The translations under genes and the position numbers were made by a program. The notes beneath the pieces were generated by a model. The model worked only from the letters and a program-made list of their open reading frames with translations. It was not told the DNA's origin and searched no databases. Positions 4,820 to 38,054 of a stretch of DNA of 64,000 bases are shown here, piece after piece. Positions within the stretch are counted from its first letter, which is position 1. Each line of letters starts with the position of its first letter. The stretch is from Pseudomonadota bacterium (lineage in GTDB: Bacteria > Pseudomonadota > Gammaproteobacteria > Burkholderiales > Eutrophovitaceae). The stretch lies in contig JAQBTV010000002.1 of NCBI GenBank assembly GCA_027624715.1, positions 1 to 64,000 of the forward strand. The letters are read 5' to 3'.

Positions 4820-6343
4820 ATGCTTCAAACGGCAGACCTTACAATAAGACTAAATGCTGCGGATGATGTAGTGATTGCGAGAACTGAACTCCCGCGGGGG
4901 ACGGAAATTCTAAAGGAGAAAATCAGAACTACGGGGGTTATACCCGCTGGACATAAGGTAGCGGTGAGGTCTTTGAACATTGGGGACTGTGTGCGAAGAT
5001 ATAATCAAATTATTGGCTTTGTCACTCAGCCAATAATTTCGGGTGATCATGTGCATGTGCACAATTTGGCGATGGGTGACTTTGAGCGAGATTATGCATT
5101 TTGTGAGGACTTCGTACCCACTGAACTAAATCCTCATCCAGCTACATTTATGGGGATTAAACGAACGGATGGGCGTGTCGCCACCCGCAACTACTTAGGT
5201 GTTATTTCCAGCGTGAATTGTTCGGCACATGTGTGTCGATTGATTGCCAAATTTTTCAATGACGAAGTAATGGCGGATTATCCGAATATTGATGGGGTAG
5301 TGCCAATACATCACCGTACAGGCTGCGGTATGGCGGCAGAAGGGGAGCCCATGGAATACCTGAGACGGACTCTCGGTGGGTATGCCATACATCCTAACTT
5401 TTACTCGACATTACTGATTGGTCTCGGTTGTGAGGCTAATCAAATTAATAATTTGCTTGCGGCACAAGGTTTGAGTAGGAGTGACCAATTAAAAGCCTTC
5501 ACGATTCAAGAGGTCGGTGGAACTCGAAAGACTGTTCAACAAGGTATCGATATGATCAAGGAGATGCTAGCTGATGCGAACAAAGTCGAACGTCAACCAG
5601 CTTCAGCGAGTCATTTGATTCTTGGGCTGGAGTGTGGCGGGTCTGATGGGTATTCAGGAATCTCAGCAAATCCTGCATTGGGTGCGGCGGCAGATCTTCT
5701 TGTACAAAATGGCGGTACTGCCATTTTGAGTGAAACCCCAGAGGTTTATGGCGCAGAGCATTTATTGACACGTAGAGCAGCGTCGAGGAAGGTTGGAGAA
5801 AAGCTGGTTGAACGGATTAAATGGTGGGAAGACTATACGACGAAACTGGGTGGGGAGATGAACAATAACCCATCTCCGGGAAATAAAGCTGGTGGTTTAA
5901 CAACGATTTTAGAAAAATCTCTTGGGGCTGTAGCAAAAGGCGGCACGGAATGCATGATGGAGGTGTACAAGTATGCGGAACAAGTTACTCAAAAGGGTTT
6001 TGTATTTATGGATACTCCGGGTTATGACCCAGTATCAGTAACAGGACATGTTGCTGGTGGAGCTAATATAGCTTGTTTTACGACCGGTCGAGGCTCCGCA
6101 TACGGCTGCAAGCCTTCTCCGAGCATTAAATTGTCAACCAACACCTCTTTATTTAATAAGCAAGAAGATGACATAGATATCAATTGTGGCACTATTGTCG
6201 ATGGTACTTGCACAGTTGAGCAGGTTGGTCAGGAAATATTTAATCGAATTCTCGAAGTTGCTTCCGGAGATCAAACCAAGAGCGAGCAGTGGGGGTATGG
6301 CGAGGATGAGTTTGCGCCTTGGGTTCTCGGTCCTACGATGTAG
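4820..6343 (+). CDS. UxaA-family altronate-type dehydratase
   Basis: A 507-residue member of the D-altronate/galactarate dehydratase (UxaA/GarD) family. Residues 1 to about 90 form the small SAF-like N-terminal domain. The remainder is the large dehydratase domain with RTDGRVATRNYLGV, HRTGCGMA, GLECGGSDGYSGIS, ANPALGAAADLLV and the C-terminal NCGTIVDG. These enzymes remove water from aldonates, with Fe2+ or Mn2+, to give 2-keto-3-deoxy acids. The start is supported by AAGGAG eight bases upstream. The FAH and SDR genes opposite make an L-fuconate, L-galactonate or D-arabinonate type substrate more likely than D-altronate, since altronate catabolism would normally neighbour kinase and aldolase genes. 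Substrate is inferred, not seen. Confidence 0.85.
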   Translation: MLQTADLTIRLNAADDVVIARTELPRGTEILKEKIRTTGVIPAGHKVAVRSLNIGDCVRRYNQIIGFVTQPIISGDHVHVHNLAMGDFERDYAFCEDFVPTELNPHPATFMGIKRTDGRVATRNYLGVISSVNCSAHVCRLIAKFFNDEVMADYPNIDGVVPIHHRTGCGMAAEGEPMEYLRRTLGGYAIHPNFYSTLLIGLGCEANQINNLLAAQGLSRSDQLKAFTIQEVGGTRKTVQQGIDMIKEMLADANKVERQPASASHLILGLECGGSDGYSGISANPALGAAADLLVQNGGTAILSETPEVYGAEHLLTRRAASRKVGEKLVERIKWWEDYTTKLGGEMNNNPSPGNKAGGLTTILEKSLGAVAKGGTECMMEVYKYAEQVTQKGFVFMDTPGYDPVSVTGHVAGGANIACFTTGRGSAYGCKPSPSIKLSTNTSLFNKQEDDIDINCGTIVDGTCTVEQVGQEIFNRILEVASGDQTKSEQWGYGEDEFAPWVLGPTM

Positions 6344-6662
6344 TAAATGATTTCTTCTGTGCATTGGGTAATAATGAGTGATGTTTCCGGAGCCAAAGAT
6401 TTGGACTAAATAGTTTCAAAAACTATAGGATTGGCTCGGCGCGTAAATTTTAGGGCTAGGCCAACTAACGATAGATCCTAGAAAAATTGAGAAAAAATTA
6501 CTAAATTAATAGTCGTAGATGCAAATGTCCGCCAGTGGGCAGGGTTAGGGCTGCTGAAAAATTAAACAAATTAAATAAAGATAAAGTAGTAGTCAAAGTG
6601 TCCAACGGAGAGCAATCACGCAATTTTTAAAGGTACAGTTTGGGAGCGTCGAATATACGGCG
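6344..6662. other. Gene gap with possible TusA-like remnant
   Basis: This 319-bp gap holds many stops in all frames. The only recognisable piece is a 41-codon plus-strand frame at 6505-6630, described separately, and the likely 5' extension of the GNAT gene (open from about 6585). Nothing else was identified. Confidence 0.5.
6505..6630 (+). pseudogene. Possible TusA-like sulfurtransferase remnant
   Basis: An open frame without a normal start codon reads INSRRCKCPPVGRVRAAEKL, then NKLNKDKVVVKVSNGEQSRNF and stop. The pattern resembles the TusA/SirA fold (D-x-RGLxCPxPVLxAxKAL followed by a VxVxxxDPGSxxDF strand), including the CPxP-type Cys. It covers about half the family length and is preceded by a stop codon. 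The match is by eye and short, so it is tentative. Confidence 0.35.
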
Positions 6663-7052
6663 ATGCTCAATTTAAGGGAGCGTCAACTTAGAGCACCTAT
6701 AGGCTTGACTCTCACTAATTCCGACCTAGAAAATGAACGCAGGCAGCATCACTTTGGCCTCTTTAATTCATCTGGAGATCTGTGTGCTTGCGTTGTATTG
6801 TCAATGGAAAACTCTGGTCAGCAAGGTAAGTTGCGCCAGATGGCCGTTGCAAAAAAGTATCAGTTGTGTGGGATGGGACGTCTGCTTTTTGAGCACGTTG
6901 AGTCTTGGTGCCGCGTGCATGGAGTAAGTCAAATTGTGCTGAATGCACGCACATCGGTTAAAGGGTTCTATCATAAGTTAGGGTTCACCGAATATGGCGT
7001 CGAGTTTGTTCAGGCGACTTTGCCACATATTAAGATGTTAAAAACATTGTAA
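6663..7052 (+). CDS. GNAT-family N-acetyltransferase
   Basis: A 129-residue (from ATG) GNAT protein. The acetyl-CoA motif is KLRQMAVAKKYQLCGMGRLL (beta4 and the Q/R-x-x-G-x-G/A loop), followed by LNARTSVKGFYHKLGFTEYG (beta5-alpha4). Homology appears to start before the ATG: in frame upstream are codons for FLKVQFGSVEYTA, and family members carry an equivalent strand ahead of the LRxxxLRxPxGL block. No ATG, GTG or TTG lies in that upstream part; a GGAG at 6607-6610 precedes an ATC codon at 6615. Either translation begins at 6663 with a shortened first strand or at an unusual codon. The substrate is unknown. Confidence 0.75.
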   Translation: MLNLRERQLRAPIGLTLTNSDLENERRQHHFGLFNSSGDLCACVVLSMENSGQQGKLRQMAVAKKYQLCGMGRLLFEHVESWCRVHGVSQIVLNARTSVKGFYHKLGFTEYGVEFVQATLPHIKMLKTL

Positions 7053-7063
7053 TACACGGGTGA

Positions 7064-7420
7064 TGCTACTCTGTTAATTTTTATCATTTTAGCAAAATGT
7101 CTCTTGCAAGAGACATAATTATTGAGCGATGTCCTACATTAGAGGTTGAGGGGCAGATATATGGAGACTCCGGTTTAGGCGAGTAGATTCGATAGACAAT
7201 TTTTCGTAATTCTCAGATTACTGATGAGACTAATTTATTAATTATGCCTAATCTGGATGCGGTAAATATTACCTTTAAATTTGATGAAGGTCACTGTGGG
7301 AAAAGTTATTTCCATTGGCCCCATACTGCTTGGTCTGAATAGGGTCGTACTGTACCGACGCCAAAGACCGTGGTAAGCCGATTAGTGAATATGTCTGGGT
7401 TGTATTAGTCGATGCCGCAA
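7064..7420 (+). pseudogene. Relic of malic enzyme/phosphotransacetylase C-terminal domain
   Basis: Broken frames read, in order, SVNFYHFSKMSLARDIIIER, CPTLEVEGQIYGDSGLGE, stop, IR, stop, TIFRNSQITDETNLLIMPNL, DAVNITFK, then after frameshifts IGPILLGLNR and PTPKTVVSRLVNMSGLY. The order and content match the end of MaeB/Pta (KM...[58 protein letters not shown]), seen intact in maeB at 35766-38054 of this window. At least two in-frame stops and two shifts show it is dead. The N-terminal malic domain is missing. Either a lost paralogous maeB or a lost pta gene. Confidence 0.85.
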
Positions 7421-7439
7421 CGAACAGCTGATTTGTGGG

Positions 7440-7763
7440 TTAGTTTGTAGGCTGTCGATTTAAGTCTTCAATGGGTATGTTTTCCCAATCGAATTCTCCG
7501 GTTGTTGGTTGAAGACCCGAGAGTTCTCTTGCCGCATTAATGAGATCCATAGCTTTGTTTTCTTCCCCATAAAAGCAATATCGTTTTGCACGCAGAATTC
7601 GATCGTTTAATAATTGGGTTTGTTGCGGCGACAGTTTGATATCAACCAAATCATCGCCTAAAATACGAATTTCTGTAGAGCACCCCGCCACACTCTGTTG
7701 TTGGGCGATGGCGCCTAGAAGGGCTGTGCAAAGTATGATTCTTAAGAAGCGTGAATAAACCAT
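7440..7763 (-). CDS. Small exported hypothetical protein
   Basis: A 107-residue protein with a signal peptide (residues 1 to about 26, hydrophobic core LRIILCTALLGAIA, cleavage near VAG-C). A Cys follows immediately (AGCST), but the preceding residues do not make a convincing lipobox. A second Cys (RYCFYGEENKA) could form a disulfide. The end is acidic (GEFDWENIPIEDLNRQ). I recognise no named family. It stands alone, pointing away from the Nudix gene that begins 102 bp away. Confidence 0.65.
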   Translation of the reverse strand: MVYSRFLRIILCTALLGAIAQQQSVAGCSTEIRILGDDLVDIKLSPQQTQLLNDRILRAKRYCFYGEENKAMDLINAARELSGLQPTTGEFDWENIPIEDLNRQPTN

Positions 7764-7865
7764 AAGGCATATGTCTCAGAATTTTTGGAAACGTATTCGT
7801 ATTTTTGTTGATTTGAGATTATGTAATACTAGTGTAGTTGAAGATTGATTTAAAAAAATACGGAA

Positions 7866-8468
7866 ATGTCACTATTGCTTACTCGTCAAACTATATCTAA
7901 AAGATTAGCGTCGTTCAAGCCAATGGTTGAAAATACAGGGCATCTGATGTTTAAGCACTCTGTTGAGGTGAGGCCTATTTCAGCCGCGGTGCTGGTTCCA
8001 ATTATTCATCGAGCTAATCGGTTGTCTATTTTATTGACGAAACGAACTGGTCATCTGAAAAATCATGCAGGTCAGGTCAGCTTTCCCGGGGGAAGGGTTT
8101 CGGATGATGATGAGAACAGGAAGACAACCGCTTTGAGAGAAACAAAAGAGGAGATCGGTTTAAGGCTCGACGATTCTGACTTATTAGGACAGTTACCTGA
8201 ATATGATATTCGAACAGGTTTTAGGGTCACTCCGTTTGTTGCCTGGATTGAGGCTCCTATTGATTGTGTTTTGGATTCTTTTGAGGTGGAGTCAATATTT
8301 GAAGTGCCAATGGATTTTGTTTTAAACCTTGGGAATTATAAAATCTCCTCAAGCCCTGACGATTTTGGTGAACGATGTTTTTACCGTTTACCCTATCTTG
8401 ATCACGAGATCTGGGGAGCGACTGCTGGAATGCTACATATTTTGGCGTCCGCACTGTTGGAGGTTTAA
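7866..8468 (+). CDS. Nudix hydrolase, CoA pyrophosphatase (NudL-like)
   Basis: A 200-residue Nudix protein of the UPF0035 CoA-pyrophosphatase group, which cleaves coenzyme A and acyl-CoA to 3',5'-ADP and phosphopantetheine. The UPF0035 motif SILLTKRTGHLKNHAGQVSF is at residues 54-73. The Nudix box runs 75-99 with the RETKEEIG core (Glu92, Glu95, Glu96) that binds Mg2+. Length is typical. The YbaK-like gene starts 5 bp after its stop, so the two are probably co-transcribed. Confidence 0.9.
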   Translation: MSLLLTRQTISKRLASFKPMVENTGHLMFKHSVEVRPISAAVLVPIIHRANRLSILLTKRTGHLKNHAGQVSFPGGRVSDDDENRKTTALRETKEEIGLRLDDSDLLGQLPEYDIRTGFRVTPFVAWIEAPIDCVLDSFEVESIFEVPMDFVLNLGNYKISSSPDDFGERCFYRLPYLDHEIWGATAGMLHILASALLEV

Positions 8469-35765: not shown

Positions 35766-38054
35766 CTATCGAGCCATTGCGTTAACTCTAGAGGCGGCAT
35801 CGACTGCCGCTAAAGCCGTCATATTAATGATTCTGCGAACCGTTGCGGTAGGAGTGATGATGTGCGCTGCCTTTTTAGTCCCCAATAGTATTGGGCCAAC
35901 GGTTATCCCGTCACTACTAGCCATCTTCAGGAGATTAAAGGAAATATTAGCCGCTTCTAAGCTCGGCATGATCAATAGGTTTGCCTCACCTTTTAGTTTT
36001 GAGTCGGGATGTATTCGTTGTCGTATGATCTCGTTTAATGCCGCATCACCATGCATCTCTCCATCGATCTCCATAGTGGGGTCTAGTTTTTCTATGATAT
36101 CGAGCGCAGCGCTCATTTTTTTCGCTGATGGGCTCTCGTCAATCCCGAAATTTGAGTGAGAGATAAGCGCAACTTTAGGTTTAAGGCCAAAACGCTTAAC
36201 CTCATCAGCCGCCATAAGAGTTATTTCCGCAATTTCTTCAGTAGATGGATTGTGGTTAACGTACGTATCACTGATAAATAGCGTTCGATTCTGCATAGGT
36301 AATAAATTCATTGCTGCAAAAATAGACGTATTTTCTTTCTTGCCAATCACGTCAGCAACGTGTTTTAGATGATCTTTGTACCGTCCGATAGCCCCGCAGA
36401 TTAGTGCATCGGCGTCCCCTCGTCGCACGAGCATAGCTGCAATGAGCGTTGTATGGCTTCTAACGGCCATCTTGGCATCATCAGGAGATACTCCTTTTTT
36501 TCTCATGATTTTATAGTATTCCTGCCAGGTTTCTTTGAAGCGTTCGTCGTTTTCTGGATTTACCACCTCAAAGTGTTGTCCAGCTTTTATTCTAAGTCCA
36601 GCTCTCTCAATTCTTGAATCGATAACGTCGGGTCGTCCAATGAGAATTGGAAGACAAAGTTTCTCATCGGAAAGCACTTGAACCGCTTGTAACACTCTTT
36701 CATCCTCACCTTCCGCGTAAATAACTTTCTTTAGATCAGCTTTCGCGGCTTCAAAGACTGGTTTCATCACAAAGCCAGTTTGATATACGAGGTTGGAAAT
36801 TTTTTCCCGATAGGCCGACATATCTTTAATGGGGAGTGTTGCGACTCCGCTGTCCATCGCGGCCTGAGCAACTGCCGGCGCTATTAGAGTGATAAGTCGT
36901 GGGTCGAACGGTGTCGGGATAATATAGTCAGGACCGAAACTCAATTCTTGACCTTCATAAGCTGTTGCGACGATATCCGAGCGTTCGGCTTGAGCTAGGT
37001 CTGCGAGAGCGTAAACACACGCCAGTTTCATTTCCTCGGTGATTTTACTTGCACCGACGTCCAAAGCGCCTCTGAAGATAAATGGAAAACATAGAACGTT
37101 GTTGACCTGGTTTGGGTAATCAGAACGTCCCGTGGCGATCACAGCATCAGGGCGTACCGATTTGATTTCTTCGGGCATGATTTCCGGTGTGGGATTTGCG
37201 AGTGCCAAGATTAAGGGTTTATCTGCCATTTTGGCGACCCAATCTTTTTTGATCGTGCCTGGCCCTGATAGTCCGAGAAAGATATCAGCTCCTCGCATCG
37301 CTTGATCTACAGACACAAAGGGTGTGTCACTGGCATAGATGGCTTTATTCTCGTCCAGCGTACCACTGCGATTTTTAGAGAGCACGCCTTTTGAATCGCA
37401 TACTATGATGTTTTCTTTTTTTATGCCTAGGATGGTGAGTAAATTAAGACATGCTATAGCTGCGGCACCTGCTCCTGCACAAACAAGTCGGACCTCGCCT
37501 AGGTTTTTACCGACTACCTTCAGCCCGTTAATGATCGCGGCACCTACGATAATCGCAGTTCCATGCTGATCATCGTGAAAGACAGGAATATTTAGTTTCT
37601 CTTTCAGTTTCTTCTCAATATAAAAACATTCTGGGGCTTTGATATCCTCTAGATTAATCCCTCCGAACGTGGGCTCTAATGCTGCAATAATATCGACTAA
37701 TTTATCTGGGTCAGTCTCTGCCAACTCGATATCAAAAACGTCAATACCTGCAAATTTTTTAAATAAACATGCTTTACCTTCCATAACAGGCTTCCCTGCT
37801 AGCGGACCAATGTTGCCTAGGCCCAGCACAGCAGAACCATTGGTAATAACTGCGACTAGGTTCGCTCTGGAGGTGTATTTGGCAGCCAGGCTAGGGTCAG
37901 CTTCTATCGCTTTACATGCATAAGCGACCCCAGGTGAGTACGCGAGTGCCAGGTCTCGCTGATTGCTTAGCACTTTTGTTGGAACAACTGATATTTTTCC
38001 AGGTCTGGGGCTTTCGTGGTACTCGAGCGCAGCAGCTTTTAGTCCATCTGACAT
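35766..38054 (-). CDS. maeB: NADP-dependent malic enzyme with phosphotransacetylase-like domain
   Basis: A 762-residue MaeB. Residues about 1-430 form the malic enzyme: [15 protein letters not shown], the substrate Lys region, [25 protein letters not shown] and the NAD(P) motif [10 protein letters not shown]. Residues about 440-762 are the Pta-like domain, which lacks acetyl-transfer activity but senses acetyl-CoA in E. coli. It ends [15 protein letters not shown]...VGPILLG...[13 protein letters not shown]. It converts malate to pyruvate with NADPH. AGAGGGA precedes the ATG. A decayed copy of the same C-terminal segment lies at 7064-7420. Confidence 0.96.

Follow-up and report, generated by a model that had tools for sequence, protein, structure and literature searches.

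Downstream of a GNAT-family acetyltransferase gene in the genome of a Pseudomonadota bacterium lies a short stretch of DNA that resembles the end of a malic enzyme or phosphotransacetylase gene and is broken by stop codons and frameshifts. This raises the question of which gene it once belonged to and how the rest of that gene was lost. We analysed the locus within a window of 64,000 nucleotides (G000:C2:1-64000) taken from an assembly of 1.77 Mb in 32 contigs with a completeness of 97.2%. The family has an old pair of hybrid malic enzyme genes of the MaeB type, and we put the probability at about 0.96 that positions 7094-7431 on the plus strand are what remains of the second of them, maeB2, namely its 3' end.

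Identity and extent of the relic

A sequence-only reading had described the interval 7064-7420 as a decayed C-terminus of the malic enzyme/phosphotransacetylase type, paralogous to an intact maeB in the same window. This description is borne out by tblastn, by shuffled controls and by the phylogeny presented below. Used as tblastn query against the whole 64-kb window, the MaeB1 protein of 762 amino acids matched itself and the region 7094-7402 (+) with an E value of 2e-14 and 38% identity over 103 residues, with internal stops. The retained paralogue maeB1 (35766-38054, minus strand) is intact as had been stated: it is full length and all three Pfam domains PF00390, PF03949 and PF01515 match. 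PF01515 is the sole Pfam match on the relic, where the malic N-terminal and NAD-binding domains are absent, and a search of the whole own genome with PF01515 found maeB1 and the relic (G000:C2:7091-7282, E = 5.4e-10, two TAG stops inside) and no third place. We also compared the tblastn scores of the relic region with those of 1000 triplet-shuffles of 7050-7440. The MaeB1 query scored 68.6 bits on the real sequence versus at best 23.5 bits on shuffled sequences (any match in 913 of 1000 shuffles), and the MaeB2 protein of G001, a relative of the same genus, scored 92.8 bits versus at best 25.0 bits (any match in 908 of 1000).

The recognisable MaeB homology covers 7094-7431 (+) and corresponds to the last 112 codons of hybrid MaeB, codons 646-757 of an ancestral gene of 757 codons. 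A TGA at 7429-7431 closes the homology at the position of the native stop codon. The homology first noted at 7064-7420 is thus real but its bounds need refinement, since 7064-7093 is spacer that follows the GNAT gene and lies outside the MaeB homology. The conserved blocks, quoted earlier as carrying stops and shifts, are present. Premature TAG stops occur at 7184-7186 and 7193-7195, and three single-base indels were identified, namely an insertion near 7275 and deletions near 7350 and 7406. The GPILLG block is found in a different forward frame because of a one-base insertion upstream of it. The relic lacks a start codon and codons 1-645, and its MaeB2 frame halts after 30 codons. It makes no working malic enzyme and is probably without any function.

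The maeB2 site in relatives and the probable course of the gene loss

In the window, the relic is flanked upstream by a gene of the UxaA/GarD-like altronate/galactarate dehydratase family (4820-6343, +) and by the GNAT gene (6663-7052, +), whose frame is open here, followed by the 41 bases that are left of the GNAT-maeB2 spacer (7053-7093, +) and end at the deletion junction. Downstream lie a gene for a hypothetical protein of 107 amino acids without Pfam match (7440-7763, minus strand) and a Nudix hydrolase gene (7866-8468, +). All four genes served as synteny markers. Inspection of the equivalent site in sister genomes, proposed as a check by the sequence-only reading, revealed a full maeB2 of 757 codons in five genomes of the same genus (G001, G002, G003, G005 and G007), in the order UxaA-like gene, GNAT gene, maeB2, reverse hypothetical gene and Nudix gene as in the window; the maeB2 of G002 includes some unread bases. 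The conserved site with both flanks is therefore seen in 5/5 same-genus genomes in which the whole site is assembled. Each of these five genomes encodes two PF03949 malic enzyme domains, and in the own genome that of maeB1 is the only one found.

Partial support comes from two further members of the genus that show maeB2 only in part. G004, whose GNAT gene is closest to that of the window (82% identity), keeps roughly the first 229 maeB2 codons before its contig ends, and in G008 the final 137 codons are retained at a contig end. An intact gene in G004, the nearest relative by GNAT, is thus not part of our case. PF01515 has no match in G004, as the contig end cuts maeB2 before that domain, and a maeB1 of G004 was found neither by PF01515 nor by PF03949. 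In G006 the UxaA-like, GNAT and Nudix genes were all not found and the maeB2 site was not located.

Outside the genus, the same markers enclose a full gene in G011, G013, G015 and G016, where its distance to the GNAT gene is 2.2-6.5 kb, and in G009 a full gene shares one contig with the UxaA-like and Nudix genes. In the three members of genus g3 (G010, G012 and G014) an SDR gene, the hypothetical gene and the Nudix gene adjoin (L075, L076 and L077), and the UxaA-like/GNAT/maeB2 block is absent between them. The single maeB found in these genomes is of the MaeB1 type and a UxaA-like gene of 55% identity is located on another contig; the block was either lost from this genus or absent from the start. 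Overall, 12 of 16 relatives from the family have maeB2 (10 whole, 2 in part), 3 are without it at the site and 1 could not be judged, in a comparison that relies largely on draft assemblies, the g3 members being 66-81% complete.

Some further observations were made around the GNAT gene and at contig ends. The gap that separates the UxaA-like gene from the listed start of GNAT (6344-6662, about 320 bases) contains no open reading frame of at least 60 amino acids that lies wholly inside it. A search of this gap for further maeB remains gave nothing significant, with one tblastn match at E = 0.25. The open frame of the GNAT gene comprises 155 amino acids in the window and 153-176 amino acids in five same-genus sisters; the true GNAT start may therefore lie upstream of 6663. 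In G001 the GNAT gene beside maeB2 is split into two pieces in different frames (L056:9082-9466), which is due to misassembly or else to the decay of a second gene in the genus. The maeB2 frame of G004 (L057, contig C224) runs into VSYTHLTLPTNRE at the contig end. This looks like read-through of a sequencing adapter, a common artefact.

The comparison with the sisters suggests how maeB2 was truncated. In 5/5 complete sisters the homology to the relic starts 1935 bases past the start codon, at codon 646. The GNAT stop and the maeB2 start are separated by about 55-63 bases in the sisters; in the window, 41 bases lie between the GNAT stop and codon 646, and similarity to the sister spacer ends just before the relic begins. 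Taken together, the spacer lengths and the missing codons 1-645 point to a deletion of about 1.95 kb. We propose that a single event brought codon 646 next to the GNAT-maeB2 spacer once this lineage had diverged from its nearest sequenced sisters, and that the retained maeB1 may have made the loss of maeB2 tolerable. In the sisters, both of the ends that would have been joined are A-rich with a short AG-AAA-like block, a faint hint that the deletion possibly occurred via a short repeat.

The surviving codons have accumulated changes in a pattern that differs from that of the working paralogue. Counted over the sites that are identical in G001 and G008, the relic deviates at 16/108, 15/108 and 16/66 of codon positions 1, 2 and 3, respectively. 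For codons 1-585 of maeB1 the same two genomes gave 16/559, 12/570 and 62/399. Codons 646-750 of maeB1 were compared with G001 and G002 only, because maeB1 of G008 is cut at codon 591, and yielded 3/97, 4/99 and 6/46. Positions 1 and 2 of the relic have thus changed at about 14% versus 2-4% in the maeB1 controls, a rate roughly four to six times that of the working paralogue, whereas the rate at position 3 is raised less than two-fold. A stricter count that required four sisters to agree gave 14/93, 13/104 and 3/21, which is even across positions, although with few third positions. In the alignment of the relic tail, those of G011, G013 and G016 were left out, and that of G015 was aligned but excluded from the counts. 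The relic drifts under little constraint. As a rough estimate from these rates of change, constraint on maeB2 may have been absent for about half of the period since this lineage diverged from G001 and G008.

We examined one genome of this species, a draft in 32 contigs, and the deletion itself could reflect an assembly join, with maeB2 still whole in the living organism. However, the two stops, the three indels and the changes at about 14% of positions 1 and 2 within the surviving 112 codons are not produced by misassembly and are independent of any join at the deletion. We consider this explanation highly improbable. The loss of maeB2 in this species is an ordinary case of pseudogene formation, in which one of two similar genes was lost in a small-genome lineage.

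Descent of the relic from maeB2

A decayed maeB tail could also stem from a recent duplication of the window's own maeB1, with which the relic has blocks in common in addition to the tblastn identity given above. However, the relic forms one clade with the six MaeB2 sequences of the genus (support 100/99), and over 112 columns it is 62-70% identical to these six versus 48% to its own MaeB1. Forcing the relic together with its own MaeB1 cost 35.4 log units and was rejected (p-AU 0.0016). For this tree the relic was read with the frame of G001 as a guide, which biases the result somewhat towards MaeB2, but a plain tblastn search without a sister frame gave the same order, with 53% identity to MaeB2 of G001 and 38% to the own MaeB1 over 103 residues each. 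The branch of the relic is long (0.53) and its place inside the maeB2 clade is unsure. In a full-length tree of 53 rows, the relic again grouped with maeB2 and not with maeB1 (SH-aLRT 98); this tree was built by a quick method with SH-aLRT support only and a midpoint root, and it left out stand-alone or partial PF01515 matches and the G008 fragments. Together with the intact maeB2 at the equivalent site in the sisters, these results rule out a duplicate of maeB1, to which we assign a negligible probability.

The full-length tree places the MaeB1 and MaeB2 sequences of the family in separate parts with no more than one copy per genome in each. Of the two copies of G038, a member of another family, one stands beside MaeB1 and the other beside MaeB2. 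Based on these positions, the MaeB1/MaeB2 pair looks older than the family.

A further possible source of the relic is a stand-alone phosphotransacetylase gene that was lost except for its tail. The earlier reading had left open whether the ancestor possessed two maeB genes or a pta gene, and had suggested aligning the relic to both families. Pta and the remnant share the PF01515 family, and Pta models do match the relic, the best of them being TIGR00651 with 51.0 bits. However, the NCBIfam model of NADP-dependent malic enzyme, NF009501, scores 91.8 bits (E = 2.8e-26) and is matched at its very end, at positions 653-763 of 764. Moreover, the syntenic sister gene of G001 bears malic enzyme domains, which are absent from Pta, and a search of the own genome for acetate kinase (PF00871) gave no match. 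Of the two proposed ancestors, the one with two maeB genes is upheld by the full gene at the sister sites, and model scores, synteny and the tree rule out a pta origin, the chance of which we regard as vanishingly small. Finally, activity of the remnant, such as that of a short peptide or an untranslated RNA, is favoured by nothing other than its survival and is scarcely credible given that the MaeB2 frame is open for 30 codons only, that positions 1 and 2 have changed so often and that 6300-7900 contains no Rfam match at gathering score.

Metabolic meaning and comparison with known systems

With the relic assigned to maeB2, a bearing of its loss on acetate and carbon metabolism, as previously suggested, can be reassessed. 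A second malic enzyme has indeed been lost, but the link to acetate was overstated. According to the pertinent passages on hybrid malic enzymes, their PTA-like C-terminal domain has no PTA activity (PMC12704298, PMC4960864) and senses acetyl-CoA (PMC7902834, PMC12704298). With this domain reported to be inactive as a PTA and acetate kinase not found, the loss concerns the conversion of malate to pyruvate rather than an acetate pathway. In Bdellovibrio MaeB, a passage of PMC7902834 describes NADP binding by aspartate, arginine and lysine at set spacings from a GAGA motif. Both paralogues keep the three residues at these spacings (positions 233, 242 and 250), and a division by cofactor is therefore not indicated. 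Judging from these residues, MaeB1 and MaeB2 would use the same cofactor and have overlapping roles.

The assembled genome is left with a single malic enzyme, and the locus represents one step of gene loss caught in a small-genome lineage. For annotation, neither a second malic enzyme nor pta should be called at 7094-7431. The locus adds one data point on which malic enzyme paralogue survives and leaves the general understanding unchanged. It is tempting to speculate that small-genome lineages of the family drop MaeB2 in parallel and keep MaeB1, the species of the window by decay in place and g3, with genomes of 1.4-1.7 Mb and the block lacking between the SDR and hypothetical genes in 3/3, by an absent block. 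If true, this would indicate a distinct, dispensable role of MaeB2. However, we consider such a trend unlikely, as maeB2 is retained in same-genus sisters with genomes of 1.8-2.1 Mb, and as the block may never have been present at this site in g3.

Among known proteins, the closest comparison is with hybrid NADP-dependent MaeB. Both the maeB2 product of G001 and MaeB1 of the window align with 8jzo_A, the former over residues 1-755 (996.5 bits) and the latter likewise (1033.8 bits). We take PDB 8jzo to be MaeB of E. coli and PDB 6zng to be that of Bdellovibrio. Like hybrid MaeB, both MaeB2 of G001 and MaeB1 of the window consist of malic N-terminal, NAD-binding and PTA-like domains, whereas maeB2 of the window is a broken remnant of 112 codons with no malic enzyme domain left.

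The presence of two hybrid malic enzymes in one bacterium has a counterpart in DME and TME of Sinorhizobium meliloti, both of which are described in the relevant part of PMC4960864 as having a PTA-like C-terminus with undetected PTA activity. In S. meliloti, however, the two enzymes differ in cofactor, NAD being preferred by one and NADP used by the other, whereas here both paralogues keep the predicted NADP-binding aspartate, arginine and lysine. A decaying maeB is not described in the maeB passages of PMC3994516, PMC8076611, PMC6117051 and PMC2700814. The last of these, in its passage on Geobacter sulfurreducens and G. metallireducens, reports relatives that likewise differ by one malic enzyme gene, with maeB in both and a second enzyme in one. 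Still, that second enzyme, mleA, is without a PTA-like domain, whereas in the family studied here both enzymes are hybrids, and one of them persists in the window as a remnant.
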